From Bacillota bacterium (GTDB taxonomy: Bacteria > Sysuimicrobiota > Sysuimicrobiia > Sysuimicrobiales > Segetimicrobiaceae), in contig JAJPJJ010000041.1 in assembly GCA_021324295.1 (NCBI GenBank), positions 1 to 64,000 of the forward strand: a stretch of DNA of 64,000 nucleotides. The letters are read 5' to 3'. The notes under the pieces were generated by a model. That model saw only the letters and a list, made by a program, of their open reading frames with translations. It was not told the DNA's origin and ran no database searches. Below, piece by piece: positions 15,040-42,939 of the stretch. The position numbers were made by a program, and so were the translations under genes. Every line of letters starts with the position of its first letter. Position 1 is the first letter of the stretch.

Positions 15040-15117
15040 ACTCCGATCAGGGCAAACCCGAAGCGATTCGGGGACGCAAAGCCACGGGACCCTCGAGGTC
15101 AGCCGGGCCGCCGGAGT
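15040..15117 (+). ncRNA. Cyclic di-GMP-I (GEMM-I) riboswitch
   Basis: The conserved GEMM-I core is present in order: GGGCAAAC, a stem CCGAA/TTCGG closed by the GNRA tetraloop GCGA (15059-15072), GACGCAAAGCCACGGG, a second stem GACC/GGTC (15088-15100), and CAGCCGGG. The closing stem P1 is ACTCCG (15040-15045) with CGGAGT (15112-15117). The class binds cyclic di-GMP and controls downstream genes, often for motility, adhesion or surface proteins. It lies in the leader of the giant protein gene, between its promoter and a terminator. Confidence 0.93.
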
Positions 15118-38362: not shown

Positions 38363-38756
38363 TCCTCAACCCTCCGCTGATATGGCCGGCCAGACCAGCG
38401 CCAGCGTGATCCACGTTCATGGGGAGCGAAACGATCAGTGCAAGGAGTACGCGTGGACGTGCTCGCTCAGACGTTCCCCACACTACCGAATTTGCCCTCA
38501 TCTCTAAGTGTACAAACTTTCACACGGGCGTCAAGCGTGCGAGCGATCTCGCGATCTCGACGATCCCGCGCCGATGGAACCGGCGCCTCGATCGTTCGAA
38601 CGGCGCCCGGCGAGCGCCGCGCCGGCGCCATCCGGCAGCAATAAAGGCGCGTCCGCCGTCGTTATCCACTGTATGGCGGGCGCTCGCCGGGCGCGCCCAC
38701 GGAAACCGCTCCTGTGGCACGAGCAGGACGGATTGTCGCTCGCGGAGGTGAAATCG
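38363..38756. other. Divergent intergenic region: cold-shock leader and selenoprotein upstream region
   Basis: 394 bases between the divergent cold-shock and SelW-like genes. The minus-strand promoter at 38507-38534 leaves a 5' leader of about 135 bases for the cold-shock gene, typical of cold-shock mRNAs. No promoter was identified for the SelW-like gene, only its ribosome site. Confidence 0.55.
38507..38534 (-). promoter_or_regulatory. Promoter of the cold-shock-domain gene
   Basis: On the minus strand TTGACG (38534-38529), a 16-base spacer and TACACT (38512-38507) lie in an AT-rich island. Transcription would start near 38500, giving a leader of about 135 bases. Confidence 0.5.
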
Positions 38757-39008
38757 ATGGCTGCGCCGATCGAGGTCACCATCGAGTATTGCACGAGCTG
38801 AGGGTACCTGCCGCATGCCGTCCGTGTGGCGGAAGAGATCCTGAAAGCCAAGAAGAACGAGATCGCGTCCCTGCGCCTGATTCCTTCTTCCGGCGGGGTG
38901 TTCGAGGTCACCGCCGGCGGGCGCAGGATCTTCTCCAAGGCGCAGACAGGGCGCCGTCCGGAACCGGGCGAGGTGCTGAGCGCCCTCGAAGCCAAGCCGC
39001 GCGGCTAG
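38757..39008 (+). CDS. SelT/SelW/SelH (Rdx)-family selenoprotein, UGA read as selenocysteine
   Basis: An 83-residue thioredoxin-like protein of the Rdx family. The TGA at 38799-38801 lies exactly where the redox-active residue belongs: EYCTS-U-GYLPHA gives the CxxU motif (Cys12, Sec15). The sequence on both sides is in one frame and family-like (EEILKAKKNEIASLRLIPSSGGVFEV, split, and GRRPEPGEVLSALE). GGAGGTGA precedes the ATG. A hairpin 10 bases after the UGA (38811-38832) fits a bacterial SECIS. Rdx proteins are small oxidoreductases of uncertain substrate. Standard gene calling would truncate it at 14 residues or start it inside. No sel genes are in this window. Confidence 0.88.
38811..38832 (+). 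promoter_or_regulatory. Candidate bacterial SECIS hairpin
   Basis: CCGC (38811-38814) pairs with GCGG (38829-38832), then after one bulged G, ATGC (38815-38818) pairs with GTGT (38824-38827) with two G-T pairs, closing a loop CGTCC. The stem starts 9 bases after the UGA and the loop is 18-22 bases after it, within the spacing SelB needs in bacteria. Confidence 0.55.
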
Positions 39009-39240
39009 TGCCGCGTCGCGCACTGTCGAGGAGGGGACGCGGCGGGGCTGCCCTGCGCGCTCCCGGGGTCCCCAACGAATCGCCGTGCTCCCGCGACTCG
39101 CTGCGCTGGGACGCCGTTCCTCGGCCGGACGCGCGGGGCACCCCCGCGGCCGATCCATCTCGCCCCTCGTCAGAGTCGGAGATCCCGACGCCACGCATCG
39201 TCTCCGGAGATGTAGGCGCGGGGGGCCGGGGCTTCTGCCA

Positions 39241-39325: not shown

Positions 39326-41083
39326 TTAGGCCTTCCGGTTTCGCGCGCGGGCTCGCTGGAACATCTGCCAGAGCTCGTCGACGGTCGTCGCGTCTTCCGG
39401 CGCCTTGTCGTCGCGAAAGCGGCCGGTGAACCGCGGGAACCGCAGGGCGAGCCCGGCGTTCTCCTGCGCCCTGCCCCACGCCGCGGTGTGGATCGGGGAG
39501 AGCGTCAGCTCGGCCCCGATCACCTCCAGCACCAGCGTGGGCTCGAACCAGATGTCCGGCTCCATGCGGGAGTCCACGCGCCGCGGACGGTGGGAGGCCT
39601 GATAGGGTGCGAGCCGCTCGAAGATCTCCGCGAGGTGCGCGTCCGTGAACCCCGTGCCCACCTTCGTGACGGTCGGAAAGGCATCGTTCGCGGGATCGTA
39701 AGCCGAGAGCAGCAGCGCGCCGTACTTGCCGCGGCGCTTGCCGCGGCCGTGGAGGGCGCCCACGACCACGAGGTCCAGCGTATCCTGGAGCGCCGTTTGG
39801 TACTCGCGCTTGTACTTGATCCACAGCCACCCTCGGGTCCCCGCCTGATAGACGGAATCCGGGGCGACGGACTTGCACATCACGCCCTCGCAGCCGTCGG
39901 TGACGGCCTGCTCGAAGAACGCCTGAAGCTCCTCGGGCGTATGGACTGTCTCCTGCGTGGCCATCCGGAGGTGGTCTGACCGCTTGATCGCCTCCGCGAG
40001 CGCCGCCCGGCGCTCTGGGTACGGCCGGCGGGTGAGATCGTGCCCCTCCGCATACAGCAGGTCGAAGGCGAAGAGGCCCACGGGGTACCGCCGCATGGCC
40101 TCCTCGATCCCGTACTTCCGCCGGCGGTGCATCAGCTCCTGGAACGGGCGCAGGTCGCCGCTCTCCGGGTCGATGGCCACGACCTCGGCCTCCAGGATCG
40201 CGCGCTTGGGCCGCAACCCCTCCTCGAGCAGCTTGATCGCGTCCGGGTACTGATCGGTGATCCGCTCCAGGCGCCGCGAGAAGATGAGGAACTCCTCGTC
40301 ACGGCGGTGGACCTGCACCCGCTCCCCATCGTACTTGTACTCCGCGACGCACGCGCCCTTGAACCGCCTGAGGATCTCGCCTGCGCTGGACACGCGCTGC
40401 GCGAGCATGGGGCGGACGGGGTTCCCGGGACGCACCTCGAGCCGCTCCACGGCCGTCGCCCCGCCACGGGCGACCGTCGCGGCCACGAGGCCCAGGTCGG
40501 ACGAGATGTTGTAGGCGCGCTCGAGCGCAGGCCTCTGCGCCCGGCCCCCCGCGTGCACCTCGGCCAGCGCGTCCAGGATCGTCGCATCCCCCACCCCAAG
40601 GCGGAGCTTGCCGGTCGCGGTCCGCACCAGGTACCGGGCCTCCAGCGGCGAGGCCCGCCGGATCAGACGGGCCAGCCCGGAAATCTTGTGCGCCTGGGCG
40701 CCCTTGCCCGACGCCGTCGCGATCGCGCGGAGCTCCTCGAAGACTTCCCTCACCCCGAGCGCCGGGTGCCCGTCCGCGCCCCGCCGGCCCAGCAGGTGCT
40801 CGGCCGCGCTCCCCAGGTCACCCGTCCGCCTCAGCGACGCGGCCACGCGGTCTTCGGTGGCCCCCGCTGCATCGGCCACGGCGCGCGCCGCGAGCTTCTC
40901 GGCAAGCCCGATCTCGACGCCGGCGAAATCCGGAGCGATCTTGCCCTGGCAGAGGTAGGTCACCGGGGTGAGCAGGTCCGGTGGAGTGTGCCGGAAGAGT
41001 TCCGCCAGGGTGGCGATCATCTTGAGTCGGCCGCTCGCCTCCTCCAGCTGCTGGTAGGCCTCGGCCATCACCCGGTACCGCAT
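39326..41083 (-). CDS. ATP-dependent DNA ligase (archaeal-type LigB)
   Basis: A 585-residue ATP-dependent DNA ligase with the archaeal/eukaryotic layout: N-terminal DNA-binding domain (about 1-210), nucleotidyltransferase domain with the adenylated Lys250 in EYKYDGERVQVH, motif III-like GLFAFDLLYAEG, motif IV EGVMCKS and motif V LWIKYKREY, then an OB-fold (VVVGALHGRGKRRGKYGALLL). Bacteria use NAD-dependent LigA for replication, so this is probably a repair ligase. GGGGTGAT precedes the ATG at 41083; an ATG 15 bases later is possible. It is not linked to Ku or polymerase genes here. Confidence 0.95.
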   Translation of the reverse strand: MRYRVMAEAYQQLEEASGRLKMIATLAELFRHTPPDLLTPVTYLCQGKIAPDFAGVEIGLAEKLAARAVADAAGATEDRVAASLRRTGDLGSAAEHLLGRRGADGHPALGVREVFEELRAIATASGKGAQAHKISGLARLIRRASPLEARYLVRTATGKLRLGVGDATILDALAEVHAGGRAQRPALERAYNISSDLGLVAATVARGGATAVERLEVRPGNPVRPMLAQRVSSAGEILRRFKGACVAEYKYDGERVQVHRRDEEFLIFSRRLERITDQYPDAIKLLEEGLRPKRAILEAEVVAIDPESGDLRPFQELMHRRRKYGIEEAMRRYPVGLFAFDLLYAEGHDLTRRPYPERRAALAEAIKRSDHLRMATQETVHTPEELQAFFEQAVTDGCEGVMCKSVAPDSVYQAGTRGWLWIKYKREYQTALQDTLDLVVVGALHGRGKRRGKYGALLLSAYDPANDAFPTVTKVGTGFTDAHLAEIFERLAPYQASHRPRRVDSRMEPDIWFEPTLVLEVIGAELTLSPIHTAAWGRAQENAGLALRFPRFTGRFRDDKAPEDATTVDELWQMFQRARARNRKA

Positions 41084-41100
41084 GGAGATCACCCCGATCC

Positions 41101-41129
41101 ACTGTACGCTGGCCGCGTGGACAGGGCAA
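41101..41129 (-). promoter_or_regulatory. Candidate promoter for DNA ligase
   Basis: On the minus strand TTGCCC (41129-41124), a 17-base spacer and TACAGT (41106-41101) lie just upstream of the ligase. The predicted start point, near 41094, leaves only about 10 bases of leader, so the ribosome site would be partly at the very 5' end. Confidence 0.4.
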
Positions 41130-41467
41130 CGGGCTCGGGAGGCCGCCGGCAGGGCCCGGCAGCGGACGTCTGTTCGCCGTGGTTGCGGCGGGCCACCGGC
41201 CCAGGCGGGTGTACTGTGGACGCCAGCGCGCAGTCTGGCCCAACGGGCGGCGCGAGCGGGCAGCTTGCGTCCACGCCCCACAGCGGCACACGGTACACGT
41301 ACGAACGAGCGGCGCGAGCGCGGACCTTGCCCTTTCCTTGACAAGGGAGCGGCGCACCGTCCGGCGAAGGCCTGGTCACAGACGATGCCTGCGCGTATCC
41401 TCGCGCCCGTGCGGCTCACGGATCTCCCACGCATCGCGGAGGGTACGAGGGCAAGGAGGCGAACGCG
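41107..41467. other. Intergenic region between ligase and DUF1326 gene
   Basis: About 360 bases between divergent genes. A perfect TTGACA (41338-41343) points toward the DUF1326 gene, but no acceptable -10 element follows at 16-19 bases. GCAAGGAGGCGAACGCG directly before the DUF1326 ATG is the ribosome site. No other element was seen. Confidence 0.5.
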
Positions 41468-42106
41468 ATGGTTGATATCCCGCGGTGGGAGCTCCGGGGC
41501 GACTGGTTCGACGTCTGCAAGTGCAACATCCCGTGCCCGTGCACGTTCGCGCAGCCGCCGACGTCCGGCGACTGCGACGGCGTACTCGCCTACCACATCC
41601 GCGAGGGCCGGTACGGCGACGTCCGGCTCGATGGCCTCAACCTCGTGTTCGTCGGTGCCTTCACGGGCAACATATGGGCGGGGGCAAGGGGAGTGGGCGC
41701 GGGCTTCATCGATGCGCGGGCCACCGAGCGCCAGCGCGAGGCGCTGCAGATGATCTTCGGCGGCCGGGCCGGCGGGTGGCCGGCGGAGTTCGCCAAGATG
41801 TTCGGGGAGATACGCGGCATCGAGGTTGCGCCTATCACCTTCGAGATCGCCGACGACCTGGCCCACTGGCGCGCCGAGGTACCGGGCAAGGTGGCGGCCC
41901 GGGCAGAGGCGCTGACCGGGCCGACGATGCTCCCGGGGCAGCGCGTGCAGTTGCACCACCCGCCGGGATCCGAGGTGGGGCCCGGGCCCGACGTCGTCGC
42001 CACGTGGGGCAGGGCGGTGGTGGACCGCGCGGATGCGTTCGGGTTCCGGTGGGAGAGGAGCGGGAAGTCGAGCAAGCACATGCCCTTCCACTGGACGGGA
42101 CCGTGA
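41468..42106 (+). CDS. DUF1326 domain protein
   Basis: A 212-residue soluble protein with the DUF1326 signature: WELRGDWFDVCKCNIPCPCTF at about residues 7-27, including the CxCxxxCxC-like cysteine set, a likely metal site, then DCDGVLAYHIREGRYGDVRLDGL. The family has no established function. It overlaps by one base the start of a DUF2182 membrane protein; these two families are recurrent neighbours, which suggests a joint role in metal handling. AAGGAGG precedes the ATG. Confidence 0.92.
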   Translation: MVDIPRWELRGDWFDVCKCNIPCPCTFAQPPTSGDCDGVLAYHIREGRYGDVRLDGLNLVFVGAFTGNIWAGARGVGAGFIDARATERQREALQMIFGGRAGGWPAEFAKMFGEIRGIEVAPITFEIADDLAHWRAEVPGKVAARAEALTGPTMLPGQRVQLHHPPGSEVGPGPDVVATWGRAVVDRADAFGFRWERSGKSSKHMPFHWTGP

Positions 42107-42939
42107 TGGACCAGCACCCGCCCCATCCGACGGCTGCCGCCGGCGAGACGACACCGGCGTCCGCGGGGCCCTCGCCCCGCGCGCAGCCCGTGCTGTGGCT
42201 GGCCCTGCTGCTCCTTGCCGGCCTCGGCTGGGCGATCACGGCGCTCCAGGCCGGCGACATGCGCAGCATGACCCAGATGCCCGAGATGGGGATGGCGCCG
42301 GCACCGGCCCCGGTGTTCCTCGCCGTCTGGATCAGCATGATGGTGGCGATGATGTTCCCCTCGGTGGCGCCGGTCGCCTCGCTCTTCACCACGATGAGCC
42401 GAGCGCGCCGCCGGACCGGCGCCCCGGTGGCTCCCACGTGGGCCCTCCTCGCGGGATACCTGGCGGTGTGGACGCTGTTCGGCGTCGGCGCCTATCTACT
42501 CTCGCTCGCCGTCCCGGCTGTGGGGATGCGGGCGCCCGGGCTGCGCGCCTACAGCCCCGTGGCGGCAGGCGTCGTGCTGATCGCGGCCGGGCTCTACCAG
42601 TGGAGCCCTCTCAAGAACCTCTGCCTGAGGCACTGCCGGTCGCCGCTGGCGATCATCGTGCACGGGTGGCGGGACGGCTACCTCGGGGCTCTGCGCATGG
42701 GGATCGTGCACGGGGCCTACTGCGTCGGGTGCTGCTGGGGCTTCATGGTGATCCTGTTCGCGGTCGGGCTCATGAACCTGGGGTGGATGATCCTGCTCAC
42801 CGGCCTGATCTTTGCGGAGAAGGTCGTCCCGCGCGGTGTGCTGATCGGCAAGGCGGCCGGCGTCGTCCTCGTGCTCTTGGGCGTCGGCGCACTCGTCGCG
42901 CCGCTGCTCGGGCGGCTGCCCGGTCCGCACCCGGTGTGA
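42106..42939 (+). CDS. DUF2182 integral membrane protein (predicted metal-binding)
   Basis: A 277-residue membrane protein with about seven helices. The DUF2182 features are MSMTQMPEMGM-like Met-rich sequence in the first outer loop (MRSMTQMPEMGM, about residues 51-62), WISMMVAMMFPSVAP (about 72-86), and HGAYCVGCCWGFM (about 200-212). The Met, His and Cys ligands suggest copper or a similar soft metal. The ATG shares its first base with the stop of DUF1326, so the two are coupled. Function is inferred only. Confidence 0.9.
   Translation: MDQHPPHPTAAAGETTPASAGPSPRAQPVLWLALLLLAGLGWAITALQAGDMRSMTQMPEMGMAPAPAPVFLAVWISMMVAMMFPSVAPVASLFTTMSRARRRTGAPVAPTWALLAGYLAVWTLFGVGAYLLSLAVPAVGMRAPGLRAYSPVAAGVVLIAAGLYQWSPLKNLCLRHCRSPLAIIVHGWRDGYLGALRMGIVHGAYCVGCCWGFMVILFAVGLMNLGWMILLTGLIFAEKVVPRGVLIGKAAGVVLVLLGVGALVAPLLGRLPGPHPV

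Follow-up and report, generated by a model that had tools for sequence, protein, structure and literature searches.

A SelW-like gene with a conserved in-frame UGA and a covarying SECIS hairpin in a bacterial draft genome

Within the window, the whole stretch of 64,000 nucleotides analyzed here, we found a gene that almost certainly encodes an 83-residue SelW-like oxidoreductase of the thioredoxin fold, with a Cys-x-x-Sec motif whose selenocysteine (Sec) is delivered by SelB via a hairpin just after the UGA codon. The evidence comprises the gene itself, the conservation of its UGA, the covariation of the hairpin, a full set of machinery genes and the predicted fold; from these sequence data, Sec is presumably the residue inserted at the UGA. 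The gene is a genuine selenoprotein of the bacterial SelW-like type (PF10262), a family already well known in bacteria. The coordinates of the features are collected in Table 1.

Table 1. Features of the SelW-like gene and of its relatives with two TGAs
Feature	Position	Strand	Details
SelW-like (Rdx family) selenoprotein gene	38757..39008	+	83 aa, Sec is residue 15, stop TAG
Shine-Dalgarno-like GGAGGTG	38744..38750	+	ATG 6 nt further; read directly
TGC, Cys12	38790..38792	+	resolving Cys of the C-T-S-U redox motif; Cys here in 81/81 tblastn matches
In-frame TGA, selenocysteine codon 15	38799..38801	+	TGA in 81/81 matches, 8/8 same-family genes, 18/19 phylum genes
SECIS stem-loop	38818..38832	+	stem 38818-38822/38828-38832, loop CGUGU 38823-38827; covariation, 89 distinct sequences
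Alternative hairpin (minimum free energy)	38808..38832	+	more stable in the window sequence alone; begins 6 nt past UGA; not conserved
SelW-like gene, TGA at both motif positions	L150:1501-1740 (G031), L152:1501-1740 (G032)		one SECIS-like hairpin

A SelW-like gene with a conserved in-frame TGA

Once the TGA is taken as Sec, the region forms a single frame, and its product begins MAAPIEVTIEYCTSUGYLPHAVRVAEEIL... (TGA translated as U). The protein scored 74.2 bits with the Pfam profile Rdx PF10262 (cut-off, 22.6) and 58.6 with TIGR02174 (cut-off, 34.2). It also matched NCBIfam NF041051 (SelTWH_Campy) over its full length with 88.5 bits, barely above the cut-off of 88; as this family is named after Campylobacter-type members and the score lies so near the cut-off, the equivalog label is a weak one for the window protein. 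The first-pass annotation had proposed an in-frame TGA at the CxxU motif of an otherwise complete Rdx protein, preceded by a good ribosome site and split in two by automatic gene finding. The intact frame, the profile scores and the conservation of the TGA confirmed the first of these proposals, the GGAGGTG upstream of the ATG bore out the second, and a mechanical list of open reading frames did report it as two pieces, 38508-38801 and 38826-39008. Gene finders thus overlook this gene or cut it short.

An AlphaFold2 model of the protein, built with 23 sequences, reached a mean pLDDT of 83.1 and places the Cys-x-x-Sec motif between strand 1 and helix 1. In a Foldseek search with this model, the best matches were all SelW-related crystal structures (TM 0.80 to 0.89, e.g., 2fa8 and 2obk). 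The Rdx structures 2fa8, 2obk, 2oka, 3dex, and 2p0g, which we take to be Cys-x-x-Cys forms, have the fold of the window protein at 27 to 38% identity. Mouse SelW (2npb) shares with it the fold (TM 0.65) and the CxxU motif at 23% identity but has a eukaryotic SECIS in the 3' untranslated region, unlike the window gene with its hairpin just after the UGA. The closest counterparts are the bacterial SelW-like selenoproteins (PF10262 Rdx, CxxU; PMC1088965, PMC1794560, PMC2398784, PMC13188914), which have the same length, fold, motif, single Sec and directly downstream SECIS; the window gene differs from them only by its host lineage and by the loop CGUGU, whose end bases C and U are unpaired, in place of the commoner AGUUU or GGUCU.

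In tblastn searches of other bacteria of many phyla, the aligned codon was TGA in all 81 matches, found at 80 loci (one of which holds two tandem copies), and the residue partnering Sec in the motif was invariably Cys. Both kinds of homolog were within reach of the search patterns; as one pattern included the motif itself, however, the lack of Cys forms among these matches carries limited weight. A tandem pair of SelW-like genes, each with TGA at the motif, was seen in a Thermomicrobiales genome (L076:1568-2080). Among 43 genomes of the phylum, 19 contain the gene, with one TGA in 16, two in 2 and Cys in 1 (G035). The first-pass annotation had named TGC in place of TGA as the observation that would overturn its reading; the relatives have TGA, with that single exception within the phylum.

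The gene is present in 8 of the 12 same-family genomes, its own included, with a single TGA in each of them, and the frame 3' of the TGA is 69 to 77% identical across the family. Three of the 12 lack it at 96 to 97% completeness, and all three have selB and tRNA-Sec, showing that the gene is dispensable. The closest named records to the window gene are soil genomes called ANGP1, which presumably belong to the phylum Sysuimicrobiota (CSP1-3). All 42 relatives fall within one order, which agrees with this placement, as Sysuimicrobiota was described with a single order (PMC11604079).

Covariation in the SECIS hairpin

To locate the SECIS, we compared 89 distinct homologous sequences without gaps, numbering the columns from the U of UGA. 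Columns 24 and 30 form Watson-Crick pairs in 90% of the sequences (44% expected) and columns 21 and 33 in 88% (53% expected). These were the top two among all column pairs, a ranking that serves as a control preserving relatedness. Both join wobble positions to wobble positions: the columns are third-codon positions on either side, so the protein does not dictate the pairing. Columns 23 and 31 form a standard pair in 99% of the sequences. Together, these columns define a stem of 5 bp closed by the loop CGUGU; the stem begins 16 nt past the UGA and the loop at 21 nt. The family alignment provides a clean covariation proof of a SelW SECIS.

The passages on bacterial SECIS elements in PMC13188914 give a loop of 3 to 9 nt, a stem of 4 to 16 bp, a distance of 16 to 37 nt from the UGA, and a G at loop position 1 or 2, with G or U as the usual next base. 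In loop length, stem length, loop G and distance, the hairpin of the window agrees with these constraints. The energy criterion for bacterial SECIS elements is a minimum free energy of -7.5 kcal/mol or less. Folds of 40 nt gave -15.5 kcal/mol when unconstrained, forming the other hairpin (38808-38832), versus -8.2 kcal/mol with the SECIS pairs enforced; by itself, the SECIS hairpin has -6.1 kcal/mol. With synonymous codons randomized and the protein kept, the 48 nt from the UGA of the window gene fold 1.2 standard deviations better than expected, and the mean z was -0.90 at the UGA versus -0.41 and -0.49 further along. Since this signal is weak, energy alone was not used as evidence for the SECIS. 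Rfam at gathering thresholds reported no SECIS in the window, a result that is uninformative for elements so short.

We initially read the more stable hairpin, 38808-38832, as the SECIS and rejected it as the SelB site because its pairs covary little across relatives; judged by these sequences, it is probably not the SelB target. The earlier claim of a SECIS-like hairpin downstream of the TGA thus held in one respect, a hairpin with compensatory changes in relatives, and failed in another, as the conserved stem, 38818-38832, is not the most stable fold.

Selenocysteine machinery and alternative readings

The selenoprotein reading implied that this organism has the Sec machinery, and selA, selB, selC, and selD are indeed present in its genome (G000), a metagenome-type draft of 4.02 Mb in 129 contigs that is 96% complete. 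Contig C106 carries selB (357 bits; cut-off, 242), tRNA-Sec (72.6 bits; cut-off, 47; ARAGORN anticodon TCA, i.e., UCA) and selA, also above its cut-off; these three are the lineage's own set, and SelB is 66 to 70% identical across the family. The native selA (L103:16414-17802) reads in two frames, with an apparent base loss in a run of C (GGCCCCAGG); the assembly is more likely to be wrong than the gene to be broken, as the other selenoprotein genes are intact. Contig C90 carries selD, likewise above cut-off, whose active site includes an in-frame TGA (ACAGUASKLS). Two formate-dehydrogenase-like (FdhA-like) genes, on C14 and C26, carry a TGA at the Sec site (ARI/V-U-H), and the loops of the hairpins downstream, GGUCU and AGUUU, are each common in SelW hairpins too.

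Another selA/selB pair, divergent in sequence, is located close to the end of contig C42 (L125:3207-7131), with a PemK/MazF-like open reading frame between the two genes. Its SelB is 38% identical to the native one, its SelA has no relative in the phylum closer than 46%, and its composition is like that of the genome; the pair is either a second set of the organism or contamination. In another genome (G007), contig C34 (L126) holds a second cluster of selA, selB, tRNA-Sec, SelD and formate dehydrogenase with a GC content below that of the native set, likely contamination from a proteobacterium.

These data allowed us to weigh other explanations of the TGA. A draft assembly in many contigs, whose selA has an apparent one-base error, could also show TGA where sequencing or assembly had corrupted a TGC, making the gene an ordinary Cys-x-x-Cys Rdx protein; the relatives refute this, with TGA in 18 of the 19 phylum genes and in every match elsewhere, and the chance of such an error is negligible. 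Nor is it realistic to regard the gene as a decaying pseudogene in which the TGA ends translation. Its absence from several related genomes would fit decay, but the identity past the TGA, always with the same single TGA across the family, shows purifying selection, and the hairpin covaries.

A different residue at the UGA, through a suppressor tRNA or a code in which UGA means Trp or Cys, is very improbable. We found no support for it, although an in-frame TGA alone leaves the residue unnamed; the Sec machinery is present, and in SelW, SelD, and FdhA the TGAs stand where Sec is known to occur. Moreover, when the window was scanned for other TGA positions flanked on either side by coding-like composition, only three turned up; none lies in a recognizable gene body, and none is convincing as a further gene with an in-frame TGA.

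If the UGA is decoded as Sec, SelB carrying Sec-tRNA(UCA) would bind the apical loop of 38818-38832 and hand Sec to the ribosome at the UGA. With the first bases past the UGA inside the ribosome, the 5' arm of 38808-38832 would come apart, which may free the SECIS stem. Most likely, the protein switches between a reduced state of its Cys/Sec pair and a Cys-Sec selenenylsulfide, and its substrates would most likely be peroxides or mixed disulfides, reduced with a thiol partner.

Relatives with two TGA codons and genomic context

G031 and G032, two related species from the same phylum, have a SelW motif that reads TGA GCG GAA TGA, i.e., UAEU. Over 2.6 kb, the two loci share 94% identity, and the genes differ at eight codons, seven of them silently, with both TGAs retained. 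The SECIS stem is the same. Its loop lies 30 nt past the first UGA and 21 nt past the second; each distance falls within the range of 16 to 37 nt. G031 has a tRNA-Sec; none was found in G032 at the threshold used, and SelA is present there. From these two related genomes, we consider it reasonably probable that the SelW-like protein of this sister genus is a UxxU double selenoprotein, with TGAs 9 nt apart and one visible SECIS-like hairpin for both, the window gene being the single-Sec form. In the passages found by a keyword search of two recent reviews (PMC13188914, PMC9312934), SelW-like proteins are CxxU and UxxU is given only for other families. These genes, which lie outside the window, are a more unusual result than the window gene, and they could test whether one bacterial SECIS decodes two nearby UGAs.

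SelW-like CxxU proteins ranked first in abundance among selenoprotein families in the Sargasso Sea set (PMC1088965), made up the largest family of the GOS set (PMC2398784), and were included in 2006 genome surveys (PMC1794560). With the family abundant in marine metagenomes by 2005-2008 and SelA in 34 of the 43 phylum genomes, the surprise initially attached to the window gene was too high. The map of selenium use nevertheless gains a phylum with near-universal Sec machinery; provided that our phylum placement is right, a search of its founding description (PMC11604079) gave no hit for the stem selen-.

The window has three further features. A dispersed intergenic repeat of ∼110 to 130 bp (39050-39164) has at least 40 copies in the genome at 79 to 96% identity, including one each 3' of selW and selD; we rejected it as a selenium-linked element because its copies are scattered over the genome. 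The next downstream gene, on the opposite strand (39326-42154), appears by eye to be ATP-dependent DNA ligase-like. Finally, a riboswitch of the c-di-GMP-I-GGC class (63.6 bits) is located at 15042-15116 on the plus strand.
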